Positions 10,381-45,051 of a stretch of DNA of 64,000 bases are shown here, in pieces. Numbering within the stretch: the first letter of the stretch is position 1; each line of letters starts with the position of its first letter. The position numbers and the translations under genes were made by a program. Origin of the DNA: an uncultured Clostridia bacterium (GTDB taxonomy: Bacteria; Bacillota; Clostridia; Christensenellales; CAG-917); NCBI GenBank assembly GCA_944358385.1, contig CALVQW010000001.1:62001-126000 (forward strand), written 5' to 3'. The notes under the pieces are model-generated. The model was not told the origin of the DNA. It searched no databases and was given only the letters and a program-made list of their open reading frames with translations.

Positions 10381-10415
10381 AAAACGCGAAAATTTAGAAT
10401 AGTTGAAGGTTGGAA

Positions 10416-11657
10416 ATGGAAAGGAACAAGGCTAAACAGCTGGTGGACGAATGCATCGCCCTGCTCTCGGAGGAATTTGCCGTCATCGACGACATCGCGC
10501 TTTTCAATCAGGAAAAAGTGCTGGACGCTTTCAGGAAAAACGCGGTCCAAGCGCGCCATTTTGCTGGATCGACGGGTTACGGCTATGACGATGCGGGACG
10601 GGACACGCTCTCCGCGGTGTTCGCCGACGCCCTCGGCGCGGAAAGTGCGGTGGTCTCGCCCATGATCACGGCGGGGACGCAGGCTCTTTCCCTCATGCTT
10701 TTCGGCGTTTTGCGCCCCGGAGACCTCTTTGTTTCGGTGTCCGGCAAGCCCTATGACACGCTCAGCGACGTTATTTCCGGCGAAAACTGCGGCTCTTTGA
10801 AAGAATTTGGCGTAGATTTTGCCAAGATAGACCTCAAAATCGACGGTCTGACTCCTGTTTTCGACTACGATGCGATAAAGGAGATCCTCACATCCCGCAA
10901 AGTGAAGGCGGTGTTTGTCGGACGCAGCCGCGGCTATGAATGGCGGAGCGCGATATCCGTGGAACAGATAGGCGAAATGATCGCTTTTGTCAAGAAGATC
11001 AGCCCCGAAACACTGGTTTTGGTGGACAACTGCTACGGGGAATTCGTGGAAAAGACCGAGCCTACGGACGTCGGAGCGGATCTCATCGCAGGCTCGCTCA
11101 TCAAGAATATAGGCGGTGGCATCGCGCCCACCGGCGGCTACATCGCAGGCAAAAAGCAGCTTGTCGAGCTGGTCGGCAGACGTCTCACCGCGCCTTCGCT
11201 CGGCACGGAAGTCGGCTCTTACGAAGGCGGTTACGCGCGCTTTTATCAAGGGCTGTTCCTCGCGCCGCAAGTCACCAAAAACGCACTGAAAAGTGCCTTT
11301 TTGTTCGCAAAAGTGTACGAAAAACTCGGCTTTGACACACTGCCTAGGACGGGGATGCGGGCGTATGACATCGTCACGAGCATCCGCATGCACGGCGCAA
11401 AACAGCTCACGGATTTCTGCGAGGCGATCCAAAGCGTTTCGCCCGTGGACAGCAACGTGATCCCCGTGCCGTGGGCGATGCCCGGATATCAGCACGATGT
11501 CATAATGGCGGCAGGGGCGTTTGTGCAAGGCTCGTCCATCGAACTCAGCGCGGATGCGCCCATCAAAGAGCCTTACATCGTGTACGTTCAGGGCGCGTTG
11601 ACCTTCGAACACGCCGCGATAGCCGTACGCGAGACGCTCCGATCCGTCATGCCGTAA
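10416..11657 (+). CDS. Methionine gamma-lyase/aluminium-resistance family PLP enzyme (YnbB-like)
   Basis: This is a fold-type I PLP enzyme of the family often labelled aluminium resistance protein or methionine gamma-lyase-like. In Firmicutes it commonly sits after miaA/hfq. The 413-aa protein has the small N-terminal region typical of the family, the glycine-rich TGYGYDDAGRDTL, VSPMITAGTQA in the PLP-binding half, and the Schiff-base lysine in SLIKNIGGGIAP at about residue 230. The frame opens at a TTG at 10410, but GAAGGT precedes the ATG at 10416 by five bases. The substrate is not established for this clade. It is the last gene of the mismatch-repair/tRNA operon. Confidence 0.88.
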   Translation: MERNKAKQLVDECIALLSEEFAVIDDIALFNQEKVLDAFRKNAVQARHFAGSTGYGYDDAGRDTLSAVFADALGAESAVVSPMITAGTQALSLMLFGVLRPGDLFVSVSGKPYDTLSDVISGENCGSLKEFGVDFAKIDLKIDGLTPVFDYDAIKEILTSRKVKAVFVGRSRGYEWRSAISVEQIGEMIAFVKKISPETLVLVDNCYGEFVEKTEPTDVGADLIAGSLIKNIGGGIAPTGGYIAGKKQLVELVGRRLTAPSLGTEVGSYEGGYARFYQGLFLAPQVTKNALKSAFLFAKVYEKLGFDTLPRTGMRAYDIVTSIRMHGAKQLTDFCEAIQSVSPVDSNVIPVPWAMPGYQHDVIMAAGAFVQGSSIELSADAPIKEPYIVYVQGALTFEHAAIAVRETLRSVMP

Positions 11658-11817: not shown

Positions 11818-12540
11818 ACGGATAATATCCGGAAAAATCGGATAAAACAATTATGAACGGCGGATGAGCGGCGACGAAGGGCGCGCAATCGGGAAAACCG
11901 TGTGTATTCGGATAAAATATCCGCCATTTCGGGAGATGTCGCGCTCTCAAACTCATATCACCGTGACCGCGCTCACGTTTTCGGCAAATGCAAGACACAT
12001 TTTCCGAAAACCGATCGAATTTTTGAGTTGACATGCGACAAAACCGCTTTTGAGCAAAATCAAAGAAACCGATCGGGTGACAACATGCGTCAAATTGAAG
12101 AAAAACCGTGCAATAATGTTTTTGACGAATAGTCGAACTCATTTTACCGAAAACGACCGACGGCACGCGCATCAAACACGTTTTGAAGAAAAACCATCGG
12201 AAATTGTTGAAATTGATATTAAATCGGATCGCATGTTCATGCTACACGGTAAAGGGATCGGCGAGAAACGGCATTTTGTCAGGTCGCGGCGCACATGGTG
12301 CGAATTGATTGCCGCATTATCACGGTAAACTCATCAATAATAAACGGTGCAAAAACGCTCAAAGCCATTTATCAAATCACGACGCAAACCACATCAACGG
12401 CATTCAGCATAGCAAATCACGCTGACAAACGATCAAAGTAATTTTACAAATCACGGTTGCAAAACGCATAATGACATTTAACAAATTACGTTAAAATACA
12501 CATCAATGACATTTGACGAAAAAACCACTCAAAAAACTTA
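11818..12540. repeat. AT-rich non-coding stretch with degenerate short repeats
   Basis: No convincing gene is present on either strand. The region holds two CGGATA-type palindromes (about 11818-11830 and 11909-11923). Loosely repeated units centred on CCGATCG (12011 and 12069) are each followed by ACATGCG (12031 and 12083). Four spaced copies of CAAATCACG/CAAATTACG lie at 12373, 12413, 12447 and 12482, 34-40 bp apart, with related flanks (ATTT before, CAAA or CATCAATGA after). Base composition is clearly more AT-rich than the neighbouring genes. It could be a decayed repeat gene, a protein-binding array or a remnant of a mobile element; I cannot decide. Confidence 0.55.
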
Positions 12541-12572
12541 ACTCTACCAAAAACTAGCCTTTTTACCGCTTT

Positions 12573-12602
12573 CTATTCGCAAAAGCTGTGTTTTGCGAAT
12601 AG
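12573..12602. repeat. Perfect 12-bp inverted repeat with hexaloop
   Basis: CTATTCGCAAAA and TTTTGCGAATAG flank GCTGTG. There is no U-run after the stem on either strand, so a simple terminator is unlikely. It lies just upstream of the A-tract block and about 300 bp before the first small-RNA promoter. It could be a protein-binding site or an RNA hairpin. Confidence 0.7.
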
Positions 12603-12623
12603 TATCCCTAGCTCTCTGCCCTC

Positions 12624-12664
12624 AAATTTTTTGAAAAATTTTCAAAAATTTTTCAAAAAGTTTT
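12624..12664. other. Phased A/T tracts (likely curved DNA)
   Basis: Four A5-T4 style tracts repeat at close to one helical turn (about 10-11 bp). This arrangement is expected to bend DNA. It sits between the inverted repeat and the small-RNA cluster and could serve as a binding site for a nucleoid protein. Confidence 0.6.
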
Positions 12665-12879
12665 CGGGAAAAACGTCCGATCCGTCATCAGTGAATGTCC
12701 CGACATCCTCACGCAGATACCAAAATGTTCTCGCAGTGTAGTCTATCGTGCTTCATCGCTCCGCTGCATCAGACCATCGTCCGGGAACAAGGAATACCCT
12801 CCGACGCTGACCGCTACCGCGATGAGCGCAGCCACACAAAGCACTCTTAAAAACCTTCATCGCTATCCGTCAGCAGTGG

Positions 12880-12908
12880 TTGACATGCCGACATAACGCG
12901 TATATAAT
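12880..12908 (+). promoter_or_regulatory. Consensus sigma-A promoter of small RNA unit 1
   Basis: TTGACA at 12880-12885 and TATAAT at 12903-12908 are both perfect hexamers with the optimal 17-bp spacer. No open reading frame with a ribosome site follows, which points to a structural RNA product. Confidence 0.85.
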
Positions 12909-12914
12909 CTGTTC

Positions 12915-12976
12915 AAGTAGCACGTTTCGACTGAAACAATTGAACAAATCGAAAGGTTTGGCGGTGCTACTTTTTC
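12915..12976 (+). ncRNA. Putative small structured RNA, unit 1 (unrecognised family)
   Basis: The predicted transcript is about 62 nt. It is closed by a perfect 9-bp stem, AAGTAGCAC (12915-12923) with GTGCTACTT (12964-12972), followed at once by a T-run. The 3' arm therefore doubles as terminator. Inside the closure is a hairpin GTTTC-GACT-GAAAC (12924-12937). A second weak stem pairs CAAA with TTTG, giving a compact three-way-junction shape. There is no coding frame. I do not recognise it as a known Rfam family. It is not similar in sequence to units 3 and 4 but shares their transcription logic. Confidence 0.65.
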
Positions 12977-12978
12977 AT

Positions 12979-13007
12979 TTGACTTATGTCGTATGCTCTC
13001 ATATAAT
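12979..13007 (+). promoter_or_regulatory. Near-consensus sigma-A promoter of small RNA unit 2
   Basis: TTGACT at 12979-12984 and TATAAT at 13002-13007 have a 17-bp spacer. The promoter begins a few bases after the T-run of unit 1, so the two units are packed head to tail. Confidence 0.8.
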
Positions 13008-13013
13008 AAGCGC

Positions 13014-13100
13014 AAATAGACGGGATATGAGACATTGTGTCTCCCATTGGTGACGGTTGTGTTTGACAAATTGCTTGCGTAGTCCGTTTATTTTCTTTTT
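13014..13100 (+). ncRNA. Putative small structured RNA, unit 2 (unrecognised family)
   Basis: The predicted transcript is about 87 nt. A 10-bp closing stem (one G-U pair) pairs AAATAGACGG at 13014-13023 with CCGTTTATTT at 13084-13093 and runs into a U-rich tail, so it acts as its own terminator, as in unit 1. Inside is a clear hairpin GAGACA-TTG-TGTCTC (13029-13043) and a weaker one near 13057-13069. Short overlapping frames exist on both strands but lack ribosome sites and family features. Confidence 0.6.
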
Positions 13101-13119
13101 GTTTCTTTTATGCGGATGA

Positions 13120-13148
13120 TTGACCGGAAACCGGGACGGTGTTAAGAT
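13120..13148 (+). promoter_or_regulatory. Sigma-A promoter of small RNA unit 3
   Basis: TTGACC at 13120-13125 and TAAGAT at 13143-13148 have a 17-bp spacer. The promoter follows the U-rich tail of unit 2. Confidence 0.75.
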
Positions 13149-13154
13149 GATCTT

Positions 13155-13270
13155 GACCGCCGCCCCGTAGGGGGTAGCCACGGAGGGAATCTCGCGTGGA
13201 CAGGGAAGAACGTTTGGTCTTAGTGCGTAGACTTCCCGCTAAACCGCCCTTTTACGGGCGGTTTAGTTTT
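13155..13270 (+). ncRNA. Putative small RNA, unit 3 (paralogue of unit 4)
   Basis: The transcript is about 116 nt with four stems. They are CCCC-GTA-GGGG (13163-13173); CCACG/CGTGG (13178-13199) with an inner GAG/CTC stem and one bulged G; GGGAAG/CTTCCC (13203-13237) around a loop containing TTAGTG and TAG; and an 11-bp terminator stem (13239-13266) followed by TTTT. Unit 4 has the same stems in the same order with compensating base changes. This argues for a conserved RNA rather than chance. No open reading frame is present. I do not recognise the family; it lacks the signature motifs of SRP RNA, 6S RNA, tmRNA and the common riboswitches. Confidence 0.8.
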
Positions 13271-13305
13271 CTCTGCGAATTTTGCGGAAACATTGTTCGT
13301 GGGGC

Positions 13306-13355
13306 TGCAAGAGAGTTTTTGAGCTAAACTCCCCTTTTGCAATAAATCTCTTGCA
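13306..13355 (+). repeat. Nested inverted repeats between small RNA units 3 and 4
   Basis: A perfect 9-bp pair, TGCAAGAGA (13306-13314) and TCTCTTGCA (13347-13355), encloses a smaller GAGTTT/AAACTC hairpin. The hairpin is followed by CCCCTTTT and could be an extra terminator for read-through from unit 3. The pair sits just upstream of the unit 4 promoter. Confidence 0.55.
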
Positions 13356-13371
13356 AAAAATGGTGCGAGCA

Positions 13372-13399
13372 TTGACATTTCCCCGCACTACGCTATAAT
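13372..13399 (+). promoter_or_regulatory. Consensus sigma-A promoter of small RNA unit 4
   Basis: TTGACA at 13372-13377 and TATAAT at 13394-13399 are perfect hexamers with a 16-bp spacer. This suggests strong constitutive transcription of the following RNA. Confidence 0.85.
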
Positions 13400-13405
13400 G
13401 AAAGA

Positions 13406-13520
13406 GCCATCACCCGGGAACGGGAAGCCACGGCAGATGCGCGTGGACAGGGGTGGAACACCTGGCTTTTAGTGTAGGCCCCCCACCAAACCGCTCGCTA
13501 TTGCGGGCGGTTTTGCTTTT
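13406..13520 (+). ncRNA. Putative small RNA, unit 4 (paralogue of unit 3)
   Basis: The transcript is about 115 nt. A CCCG-GGAA-CGGG hairpin (13413-13424) is followed by CCACG/CGTGG (13428-13446) with an inner GC/GC stem, AGAT loop and the same bulged G as unit 3. The shared linker ACAGGG comes next, then a GGGG/CCCC stem region with the shared TTAGTG and TAG. It ends in a terminator with arms 13488-13498 and 13503-13513 and a T-rich tail. Conserved single-stranded blocks and compensated stems relative to unit 3 support one RNA family in tandem. The AGGGGTGGAAC string resembles part of a T-box, but the specifier structure is missing and unit 3 lacks it. Confidence 0.8.
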
Positions 13521-13548
13521 GTCGGATCGTGTGGATTTGCGGGAGGAT

Positions 13549-13583
13549 CGGCGAAAAATACGGCTCGCCCGTCACACTCGCGC
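13549..13583 (+). repeat. 35-bp copy of the ribF 5' coding end (inverted relative to ribF)
   Basis: These 35 bases are identical to the reverse complement of 16544-16578 inside the N-terminal codons of ribF, encoding GEKYGSPVTLA in the same frame. Weaker similarity continues upstream (GGATTTGCG against GATATTGCG). The two copies form a perfect inverted repeat around about 3 kb holding the acyltransferase remnant, the XRE gene and the TIM-barrel gene. Identity at third codon positions points to a recent duplication or rearrangement scar. Confidence 0.85.
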
Positions 13584-13591
13584 GCGGAATT

Positions 13592-14254
13592 TCAGTCGCT
13601 GTCGGGCGCGAGGGCGCGCGGGAGGCGGTGATAGACGTGTTTTCGGAGTGTCGCGGCACGCAGGGCGAGGATCACGCGGTCCGCTCCCCTCTCTATCACG
13701 GCGGAAAACGGATCGACGATATAGCGTTCCGCAGTAGCTTTGTAGGCGAGCGCGATGAGGGTGCTGCCCACGAAGAAAATGACGGCGAGGATGAGTATGG
13801 CGGGAATGAGCGCGTCCGAGCCGAAGCGCATGATGGCGTAGTCGAAATACTCCCCTTGCAGATATTTGACGAAAAGGTTGTTGCGGTGGATGATGTACAC
13901 CAACATGGAGACCGCGCCCAGCTTGTTTACTGCTTTTGAGACGAAATTGCGGCGGACGGCGAGATTGAATGCGGAGAGGGAGAGCGCGAGCATGACGGGG
14001 TTGTTGATGTGTATCCACGCATGCAGCTCCCCTTCCAGCGTGTCCGTCGCAAGCCCGATATAATTCATTGCGATGCGCATGGCGAAGTAGAGGATGACGC
14101 TTGCCACCAACACCGTGACGTTGAGTTTGAGGGAGTGGGTGAACTTTTTGCCGTAGAATTTGAGCCACGCGACGATGAAGTAGATCGCCACAAAGACGAG
14201 GATGCGCAGCACTCCGAGGTGTACGCCCGCGCCCCATATCACGCCGAAACACAT
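13592..14254 (-). pseudogene. 5'-truncated acyltransferase family 3 membrane protein
   Basis: The 220-aa product is strongly hydrophobic with about five or six membrane helices. It ends like the C-terminal half of acyltransferase-3 proteins (O-acetylation of surface polysaccharides or peptidoglycan), including LGAVSMLVYIIHRNN. Complete members have ten helices, about 330-380 residues and an N-terminal catalytic His, all missing here. The frame stays open back to a stop at 14354-14356, without a convincing start and without the missing domain. I infer a remnant rather than a working enzyme. It lies between the ribF fragment and the XRE gene, consistent with a rearranged spot. Confidence 0.7.
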
Positions 14255-14387: not shown

Positions 14388-14609
14388 ATGAGTTTAGGGG
14401 CTAGGATCAAAGCACTCAGGATAATGTACGCATACACGCAGGCGGAACTCGCCGAAAAGATCGGCGTGAACTCCAGCGCGATCTCCCTTTGGGAAAATGA
14501 CGTCAACGAGCCGAAAGCCACTTATATCGCGCGGCTGGCGTTGACTTTCGACGTACCTGCGGGCTATCTGCTCGGCATTGAGGACGAGGTGGGTGAACGC
14601 ATAAAATAA
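14388..14609 (+). CDS. Small XRE-family (Cro/CI-like) helix-turn-helix regulator
   Basis: The 73-aa protein is almost entirely one HTH_3 domain (about residues 5-60). It has TQAELAEKIGVNSSAISLWE as the recognition region and FDVPAGYLLG at the end, typical of Bacillota regulators of phage or mobile origin. It has no effector domain. It is a single gene, divergent from the truncated acyltransferase and followed by a terminator. The start is ATG at 14388. Its target is unknown; given its location it may act on the local small-RNA or acyltransferase region, which is inference only. Confidence 0.88.
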   Translation: MSLGARIKALRIMYAYTQAELAEKIGVNSSAISLWENDVNEPKATYIARLALTFDVPAGYLLGIEDEVGERIK

Positions 14610-39213: not shown

Positions 39214-39538
39214 GTGGTGCGAGGATAGTCTGTAAGCCGAGTTCTGTCTTGGACGACGATCTATCTCGGCCGCATGTTGCCATACGGCTCTAGCGAACGG
39301 GAGCTTGCGGGCAGCATTTCACGCTCCTTTCTTGCATCGGGTGGGGTTTACATCGCGCCTCGTCGCCGATTTGCGGGTGAGCTTTTACCTCGCCTTTCCA
39401 TCCTTACCCTTGCGGGCGGTTTTTTTCTGTTGCACTTTCCTTGAAGTCGCCTTCACAGGCAGTTGACCTGCACCCTTGCCCTGTGATGCTCGGACTTTCC
39501 TCACGTTTCCGTGCCGTCGCCCGGCTATCTCGCGCAAT
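39214..39538 (-). ncRNA. rnpB: RNase P RNA
   Basis: This is the catalytic RNA that matures tRNA 5' ends. On the minus strand it shows the universal conserved regions: GAGGAAAGTCCG near the 5' end, ACAGGGCAAGG-type P3/P4 sequences, GTAAACCCC, and the 3' GAACTCGGCTTACAGAC. The P1 stem pairs GCGAGATAG (39525-39533) with CTATCCTCGC (39219-39228). Its length of about 325 nt is normal. Ends are estimated from P1 and from the promoter position. Confidence 0.95.
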
Positions 39539-44384: not shown

Positions 44385-45016
44385 AAATGCGCCCGGAAGT
44401 CTCCGGACGCGTGAGCGGTGTCCACCGCATAAACTTCGTTTGCGCTGGCAACAGCCTGAGTAAACCTTGCGCCATCAGGTTCGGTAGGCTTTCCCCCTGC
44501 GGAAACTCGCCGTCGCCGTGCGAGGGGTTTCCCATCACTCCGCAGGACGCACAGAGTGCGCAACCGAATCGCCACTTAGAGCACACTATAATCCCCAAGC
44601 TGCCTCGTGAGAACAGTCTAGAAGTTTTCCTTGGCAATTTTCGTCCGCCCTTATCTTTTTTTGCAGACAACATTTCGAGAGGCGATCGCCCTGCGGCATC
44701 GGCCGGATGCGTAGGGGCGTAGTTCCTCAGTCCCTGAATGTCCACTCAAAGCAGGCTACACTGCACACAGCACTTTCGCACCGCATAGCAGGTTTCACCC
44801 CGGTCAGTAGGTGCAGCACCCACCGAGTCGGGTCTCCGCGACAACCGGGTCGAGTTTCGCATGCCGTTGCGAACCGCCCGAAAGTCTTAACTCCCAGCAA
44901 CAGCCCCGGTTTGGGCAACCAAAGCCATCACCAGAAACTTCATCGATGTGCCCTTCAGCGATATTTTACCCCCGCCTTCGGGTCGGCGAAAACTGACTAG
45001 AATACTGCGCCAGCGT
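44385..45016 (-). ncRNA. OLE RNA (ornate, large, extremophilic)
   Basis: The minus-strand non-coding transcript of about 610-630 nt carries a consensus promoter at its start. It ends in an intrinsic-terminator-like stem (44389-44410) right before oapA. Three facts support OLE: its length matches the family (about 610 nt), the next gene encodes a four-helix OapA-like protein, and tlyA, argR and recN follow, as at the Bacillus halodurans OLE locus. The sequence is GC-rich and full of local helices and lacks any credible coding frame. Known OLE RNPs sit in the membrane and matter for tolerance to cold, short-chain alcohols and Mg2+. I did not align it to the covariance model. Confidence 0.87.
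44389..44412 (-). terminator. Terminator-like stem at the OLE RNA 3' end
   Basis: On the minus strand GCGTCCGG and CCGGGCGC pair (one G-U) around a six-base loop and are followed by ATTTTTG, 20 nt before oapA. This would let most transcripts end as OLE RNA with partial read-through into oapA-tlyA. Confidence 0.75.
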
Positions 45017-45022
45017 TTATAT

Positions 45023-45051
45023 ATTATACATAGCTAACGGAATAATGTCAA
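45023..45051 (-). promoter_or_regulatory. Consensus promoter of the OLE RNA
   Basis: On the minus strand, TTGACA (45046-45051) and TATAAT (45023-45028) are both perfect with a 17-bp spacer, which predicts abundant transcription. Confidence 0.9.

Follow-up and report, generated by a model that had tools for sequence, protein, structure and literature searches.

A predicted pseudoknotted RNA family absent from Rfam lies beside a gene of likely virus-derived inserted elements in Clostridia

Two small predicted transcription units (units 3 and 4) in a 64,000-nucleotide stretch of DNA from an uncultured Clostridia bacterium (hereafter the window) are, as judged from an alignment of 33 copies, members of one pseudoknotted RNA family, which we call family A. 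By the same alignment the family is well supported, has a covarying pseudoknot and is absent from Rfam. Where its surroundings are intact, the RNA is divergent to a small gene of likely virus-derived inserted elements, whose genes it may silence.

Results

Fold and Covariation of Family A RNA

Family A RNA is about 85 nt long plus a terminator, and the alignment of 33 copies, 31 of them distinct, gives a fold of five helices. H1 is CCCC/GGGG; H2 is CCACG.../...CGTGG and carries a bulged G that never varies; P3a is GRGAAG/CTTCYC and P3b is ACGT/GCGT; the fifth helix is a pseudoknot that the 5' end forms with the P3 loop. Over the 27 base pairs of the 33 copies (816 cells), 96.0% of the cells were paired compared with 84.3% in shuffles, and 19 of the 27 pairs varied on both sides compared with 8.2 in shuffles; sliding of the helix partners abolished this covariation signal. 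The pseudoknot helix was 89.3% paired, with an outer pair that was GC in 16 copies, AU in 6, UA in 2, CG in 1 and unpaired in 5. The pair count of the pseudoknot is the cleaner evidence, since the alignment had been fitted to H1, H2 and P3 and not to it. On the transcript strand, G-U cells outnumbered A-C cells by 46 to 8, or by 22 to 7 when one near-constant U-G pair was set aside. Several unpaired bases were nearly invariant, namely the bulged G of H2, the AG that precedes this helix and the AC that follows it, and the A/AGA internal loop.

Although 29 of the 80 aligned positions differ between units 3 and 4, each unit forms every one of the 27 family pairs: 17 pairs are identical, 8 are changed on both sides, 2 on one side and none is broken. 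By comparison, 29 random substitutions left a mean of 14.7 and a maximum of 22 surviving pairs in 2000 trials. The 19 doubly changed pairs of the family and the 27 of 27 pairs kept in both units bear out the proposal of an earlier note on this DNA that the units represent one conserved RNA family with covariation. The stems, bulged G, ACAGGG linker and TAG word named there are likewise all present. Its layout of the hairpins needed correction at hairpin 3, which really consists of GGGAAG/CTTCCC and, further in, ACG(T)/(G)CGT with an A/AGA internal loop, and the fifth helix, the pairing of the hairpin 3 loop with the 5' end of the RNA, had been overlooked. A GGTCT/AGACT helix within hairpin 3, suggested by unit 3 alone, was rejected: GTAGAC is nearly fixed, and the GGTC strand varies with the 5' end. 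Two genomes, G149 and G226, have a variant of the RNA (locus L047, 160-240; locus L134, 1378-1458, minus strand) in which a 5' hairpin is added between pseudoknot strand and H1, and in which P3 is altered.

Transcription Signals and Folding Energy

As the earlier note had stated, each unit has its own predicted sigma-A type promoter (9 of 12 consensus positions in unit 3, 12 of 12 in unit 4) and its own predicted intrinsic terminator (Table 1). The 3-kb stretch around them contained 10 promoter-like sites compared with 2.9 +/- 1.5 in shuffles; terminator-like sites as a class were not enriched in this stretch (5, with 4.1 +/- 2.0 expected). In the wider family, a promoter match of 9-12 of 12 positions ended 5-7 nt before the RNA in 30 of the 31 copies with readable upstream DNA, and in the remaining one (L047) the match lay 21 nt before it. 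A simple script found a stem and T-run after 27 of the 33 copies; one of the six misses is at a contig end, and we take the other five to reflect a script rule that is too strict.

Folded together with its terminator, unit 3 had an energy of -54.1 kcal/mol (z -4.0) and unit 4 one of -49.2 kcal/mol (z -2.1). Without the terminators the folding energies were unremarkable (z -0.7 and +0.1, respectively), and energy by itself is therefore insufficient proof of structure in the two units. In cmsearch with covariance model R1, unit 3, a member of R1 by construction, scored 108.8 bits, and unit 4, which was left out when R1 was built, scored 56.3 bits.

Table 1. Positions of the features in the window
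Feature	Position	Strand	Signals, sequence or basis
ynbB-like gene (name presumed)	10410..11657	+	Left neighbour of the dif-like site, also in several relatives; shared gene clusters, tblastn
DNA like G004:C59 around its dif-like site	12556..12654		90.1% over 101 columns
dif-like palindrome	12573..12602		CTATTCGCAAAA-GCTGTG-TTTTGCGAATAG; pattern search and shared flank
DNA like G004:C59 around its unit 1 homologue and the ATPase gene start	12758..12981		82.4% over 227 columns
Unit 1 small RNA	12917..12975	+	Three-way fold closed by GTAGCAC/GTGCTAC, then T-run; promoter 12880-12908
Unit 2 small RNA	13014..13093	+	Closed by AAATAGACGGG / TCCGTTTATTT; promoter 12979-13007; homologues G004:C59 and G004:C43
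Unit 3 promoter, sigma-A type	13120..13148	+	TTGACC-17-TAAGAT; consensus scan, 9/12 positions
Unit 3 family A RNA core	13155..13238	+	5' pseudoknot strand GACC, H1, H2 with bulged G, P3a/P3b
Unit 3 intrinsic terminator	13239..13271	+	Predicted
Unit 4 promoter, sigma-A type	13372..13399	+	TTGACA-16-TATAAT; consensus scan, 12/12 positions
Unit 4 family A RNA core	13405..13485	+	5' AGCCA pairs with loop TGGCT
Unit 4 intrinsic terminator	13488..13520	+	Predicted
Small XRE-type helix-turn-helix gene (name read from sequence)	14388..14609	+	tblastn; similar DNA at G004:C43

Rfam Status, Relatives and Origin of the Two Units

The earlier note recognised no named family for units 3 and 4, and a search of the whole window with 4227 Rfam families at curated cut-offs agreed, matching only OLE RNA and RNase P RNA elsewhere. 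A laxer scan of positions 12500-13700 gave rnk_pseudo as the best model for units 3 and 4, at 21.9 and 23.8 bits against a cut-off of 55; with all scores so far below cut-off, assignment of the units to an Rfam family was rejected. An Rfam search of seven relatives' loci returned just a THF riboswitch, located elsewhere.

BLAST against 100 genomes (E <= 0.01) found unit 3 in 7 and unit 4 in 4, the window's own genome being counted in both and some of the weaker matches being to the terminator only; within the genus, matches were confined to G000 and G004 among ten genomes. A covariance model built from four copies reported 14 of 297 genomes of the order at E <= 0.01, of which 11 were judged real by eye and three (G109, G029 and G139) were dismissed as false, having no promoter, terminator or fold. 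A twelfth genome with family A RNA, G226, came via the neighbouring gene, bringing the count to 12 of 297. The exact pattern occurred in 19 stretches of a named genome collection, from Clostridia, Oscillospiraceae and Eubacteriales bacteria and from Candidatus Faecicola and Limadaptatus. In a class sample of 391 genomes, under strict filters that lose weak copies, family A RNA appeared only in the window's own genome, and the RNA pattern had no match among viral contigs.

The part of the earlier note that read the two units as a tandem duplication did not survive. Unit 3 is 94.0% identical to a copy on contig C43 of G004, another genome of the same genus, compared with 63.8% identical to unit 4, and on these values a recent tandem duplication was rejected as the source of the pair. 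The lineages of units 3 and 4 therefore split before the two became neighbours. A structure-free comparison of units 1-4 revealed no common family.

The Partner Gene and Its Element

An intact divergent partner gene, encoding a basic protein of ~100 amino acids that begins MSxVNYSL, was found beside 10 of the 33 copies. The RNA runs opposite to the gene in 10 of these 10, with its -35 box overlapping the gene start, and in 9 of the 10 the gene begins 27-28 nt from the RNA. When the gene was searched for alone, it turned up in 7 of the 297 genomes of the order, 6 of them with the RNA adjoining and the seventh (G054) with a fragment. The protein matched no Pfam or PHROG family, and its predicted fold (mean pLDDT 76.7) had no structural match at E <= 0.001. 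Searches of phage, plasmid and IMG/VR collections did not match the gene, and of 15 stretches in viral contigs that fit its peptide pattern none was confirmed.

In the loci that we read, the surroundings of the partner gene include rolling-circle Rep genes that fall into three Pfam types, small genes, a gene for a P-loop membrane ATPase and genes whose products are secreted or lie in the membrane. Most of these share the strand of the partner gene; the RNA is copied from the opposite one. The earlier note had missed this element and its small gene, as well as the dif-like site and the homologues of units 1 and 2 on a relative's element contig. The Rep genes are PF01719/PF00910 in G300, PF23343 (ORF2/G2P) in G004 and PF02486 (Rep_trans) in L067; by Pfam match these loci thus have a rolling-circle replication protein, as an Inoviridae-like element would. 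A pI/Zot-type ATPase was not found by profile, with no Zot match in any of 23 ATPase relatives, and an AlphaFold model of the ATPase (mean pLDDT 64.4) had no viral fold match and no match at all at E <= 0.001. Integrated inoviruses of gut Clostridia carry Rep, secreted proteins, a membrane ATPase and a pI homologue with Zot matches, according to PMC10061712. The element here is likewise integrated in Clostridia and shares the first three of these features, but its ATPase has no Zot match by profile and no fold match. Overall, the gene content, from which the elements are known here, suggests that they are filamentous-phage-like and likely virus-derived, with a possible remote kinship of the ATPase to Zot. 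At E <= 0.001 the partner protein reached 731 protein clusters, and the ATPase 2861 clusters among 8000 scored; the RNA family is thus tied to an abundant yet unnamed element type, for which the RNA and small gene together provide a marker.

Orphan Copies

Classed by the neighbouring gene, 10 of the 33 copies had it intact and 8 as a fragment or broken, 12 had none within 700 bp and 3 were unjudged, two of these being at contig ends and the third (L080) partly seen, with a different small gene. Pairing was 97.0% in copies with an intact gene, 96.3% where it was broken and 94.3% where it was not found. The orphans, 20 of the 33 copies, had a promoter match of 9-12 of 12 positions ending 5-7 nt before the RNA in 20 of 20 cases and kept the near-invariant unpaired bases in 158 of 160 cells over eight columns. 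Because the model search favours intact over decayed RNAs, the orphan count is biased, and the fold and promoter kept in orphans are evidence for constraint in these sequences rather than a measure of it. Identical copies occurred twice in one genome in two cases: L065 and L070, both by intact genes (83 of 83 positions), and L076 by a remnant with L081 by an intact gene (88 of 88 positions).

The dif-like Site and Chromosomal Place

Units 1-4 adjoin a dif-like palindrome near a GC-skew maximum, the maximum of the 220-kb contig lying 2.4 kb from the palindrome. A search with the Bacillus subtilis dif site as query was discarded, 9 of 28 positions being wrong in its best match, and the palindrome was then spotted in the shared flank. 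Its pattern, with up to 2 mismatches, occurred in 43 of 60 relatives, usually at one place, these 43 including all 10 genomes of the genus; read backwards, the pattern occurred in 9 of 60 genomes. A single chromosomal palindrome with a 6-bp centre near the replication terminus is what a dif site should look like, and we regard it as a putative site of recombination. Near RNA copies, the strict form was present in the window, G004, G073, G017, G294 and G090, with a centre of 7 bases in G090. Other family A copies lie away from such a site, on contig C93 of G004 between genes read as spoIVB and spo0A, and at other places in G276, G239 and several named contigs.

The gene to the left of the palindrome we take to be ynbB-like, and the XRE-type gene to its right occupies the same position at the dif-like region of G005 and of G006. 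In the window these two genes are 2731 bp apart and enclose units 1-4, compared with 1326 bp (G005) and 1144 bp (G006) in congeners without an RNA match; in others without a match, ynbB-like and nfo-like genes are 615 bp (G003) and 628 bp (G001) apart, and the spacing in G009 is indistinct. In G004, element genes are found on contig C59 together with homologues of units 1 and 2, a dif-like site between these two and ynbB, while an RNA copy forms the end of contig C43, with the XRE gene and another unit 2 homologue beside it. C59 and C43 probably adjoin each other in the genome. An element integrated by Xer would have dif sites at both ends of its insert; one dif-like site lies on C59 and none was found in the final 1.6 kb of C43, the contigs stopping inside the element.

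Two minor observations concern this region. In G090, a tyrosine recombinase gene (PF00589; L024, 8282-9349, minus strand) adjoins the RNA and the dif-like site; it has relatives in G073, G017 and G294 and possibly encodes a Xer recombinase beside its dif site. Between ynbB and the dif-like site of the window (11900-12560) there is no convincing gene, and words such as AAATCACG and CATTT recur.

Possible Function of Family A RNA

The reading that we favour, with a probability of roughly 40%, is that family A RNA, pseudoknotted and divergent to a gene of inserted elements that are likely virus-derived, acts to silence both the genes of its own element and related incoming elements. A silencing or immunity role appears most likely to us because the strong promoter overlaps the partner gene start, the RNA opposes the gene and orphans exist; simple immunity is disfavoured because identical copies sit twice in one genome, which simple exclusion would forbid. 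In the mechanism that we propose, RNA polymerase starting from the strong sigma-A type promoter, with its -35 box over the small-gene start codon, would run against messages of the element operon. The freed RNA would fold with its 5' end locked in the hairpin 3 loop and would offer its near-invariant unpaired bases (AG, the bulged G, AC and the A/AGA loop) to a putative protein partner, and orphan copies such as units 3 and 4 would keep supplying the RNA in trans. If the RNA acted by antisense pairing alone, its invariant unpaired bases would have no explanation. More doubtful is the extension that decay of elements at dif leaves behind RNA genes of different lineages, a chromosomal scar that would silence later elements by their own control RNA. 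Should orphans work in trans, an RNA defence that still functions would outlast the decay of the elements, and the dif region would be a place to seek such scars.

Retention by orphans of the fold, the promoter and 158 of 160 near-invariant unpaired cells with no element genes nearby could also mean that the host has adopted the RNA as a regulator, binding RNA polymerase in the manner of 6S RNA, or an RNA chaperone, and has kept orphans for its own use. We consider this unlikely, given that the RNA matches neither 6S RNA nor another Rfam family and that its presence in 12 of 297 genomes of the order, and in only G000 and G004 of ten in the genus, argues against a core host function. Control might instead be confined to cis, with transcription of the RNA gene against the element operon and antisense pairing to read-through messages limiting the next gene, and with orphans as functionless relics. 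The -35 box that overlaps the small-gene start in intact copies, the opposed direction in 10 of 10 and the same layout of unit 1 before the ATPase gene in G300 are all consistent with such control; it would leave the pseudoknot and the invariant unpaired bases of orphans unexplained, and we hold it to be quite unlikely.

Since genes for Rep, the ATPase and secreted proteins surround the RNA and lie on the other strand from it, the RNA could serve replication or packaging of the element, as a primer, a copy-number control or a packaging RNA like that of phi29. Its predicted intrinsic terminator and its persistence after loss of the element genes make this improbable, and the phi29 packaging RNA family was not matched among the Rfam models. 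The tight, divergent pairing of RNA and small gene is also what a toxin-antitoxin-like system would show, with the small basic protein as toxin and the RNA as antitoxin; such a pair is very improbable, the protein having no Pfam or PHROG family and RNAs without the gene being common (20 of 33). Finally, the rolling-circle Rep genes imply a single-stranded DNA stage, in which the structure might be an origin or packaging hairpin of the DNA itself. The 46-to-8 asymmetry of G-U and A-C cells, on the transcript strand, disfavours a DNA signal, and promoter and terminator are kept, orphans included, so that we would hardly expect this explanation to hold.

A silencing RNA of this kind would have partial counterparts in known systems. 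C4 of P1/P7 and OOP of lambda are short antisense RNAs with their own promoter and terminator that run against phage genes. Family A RNA is likewise short, with its own predicted promoter and terminator against element genes, but has no Rfam match, and its pseudoknot together with its invariant unpaired bases hints at a role beyond antisense pairing. 6S RNA is a long hairpin with an open central bubble that binds RNA polymerase; family A RNA is also a free-standing structured RNA without a reading frame, but it is much shorter, folds without a long closed hairpin with a central bubble and has no Rfam match. The packaging RNA of phi29, about 115 nt long, lies beside virus genes and pairs through its loops, and so resembles family A RNA in size, position by virus-like genes and loop pairing, but the family A loop pairs with its own 5' end, and no Rfam match links the two. 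The lambdoid prophage small RNA svsR of Escherichia coli limits coliphage infection, according to PMC12803456. It too is a small RNA of an integrated element with an effect on other phages proposed or shown, such an effect being conjectural for family A; host and element type differ, and we make the comparison without a claim of homology. In searches on inovirus/dif/Xer, Clostridia noncoding RNA, superinfection immunity, structured-RNA candidates and Christensenellales, family A RNA was undescribed among the matches listed, so far as the available text of those sources extends. PMC8040213 predicts thousands of RNAs in human microbiomes, among which an unnamed family A entry is possible.

Other RNA Units Nearby

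Unit 1 was found in five copies (the window, G004, G300, G090 and G239), in all of which the closing helix is present, with two pairs changed on both sides. Homologues of units 1 and 2 lie on the relative's element contig (G004:C59). In G300, unit 1 precedes the ATPase gene in a layout like that of family A RNA and the small gene, and G239, like the window, has a homologue of unit 1 close to a family A copy without element genes. The words GAACG and TTTGG are common to unit 1 and family A near unpaired parts (L089, 1501-1605; L094, 3275-3352; L035; L050) and may possibly mark a common binding site.

In G090, family A copies alternate with a further small RNA-like unit that has a promoter, hairpins and a terminator and was seen twice (L010, 2180-2310 and 2480-2600, minus strand). 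On contig C21 of G276 (L057, 8989-9070 and 9403-10173), a few hundred bases separate a family A copy from an apparent CRISPR array, with Cas genes beyond. The minus strand of the window also encodes the large ornate OLE RNA (RF01071, 414 bits, 44429-45029) and a class A RNase P RNA (RF00010, 230 bits, 39216-39532).
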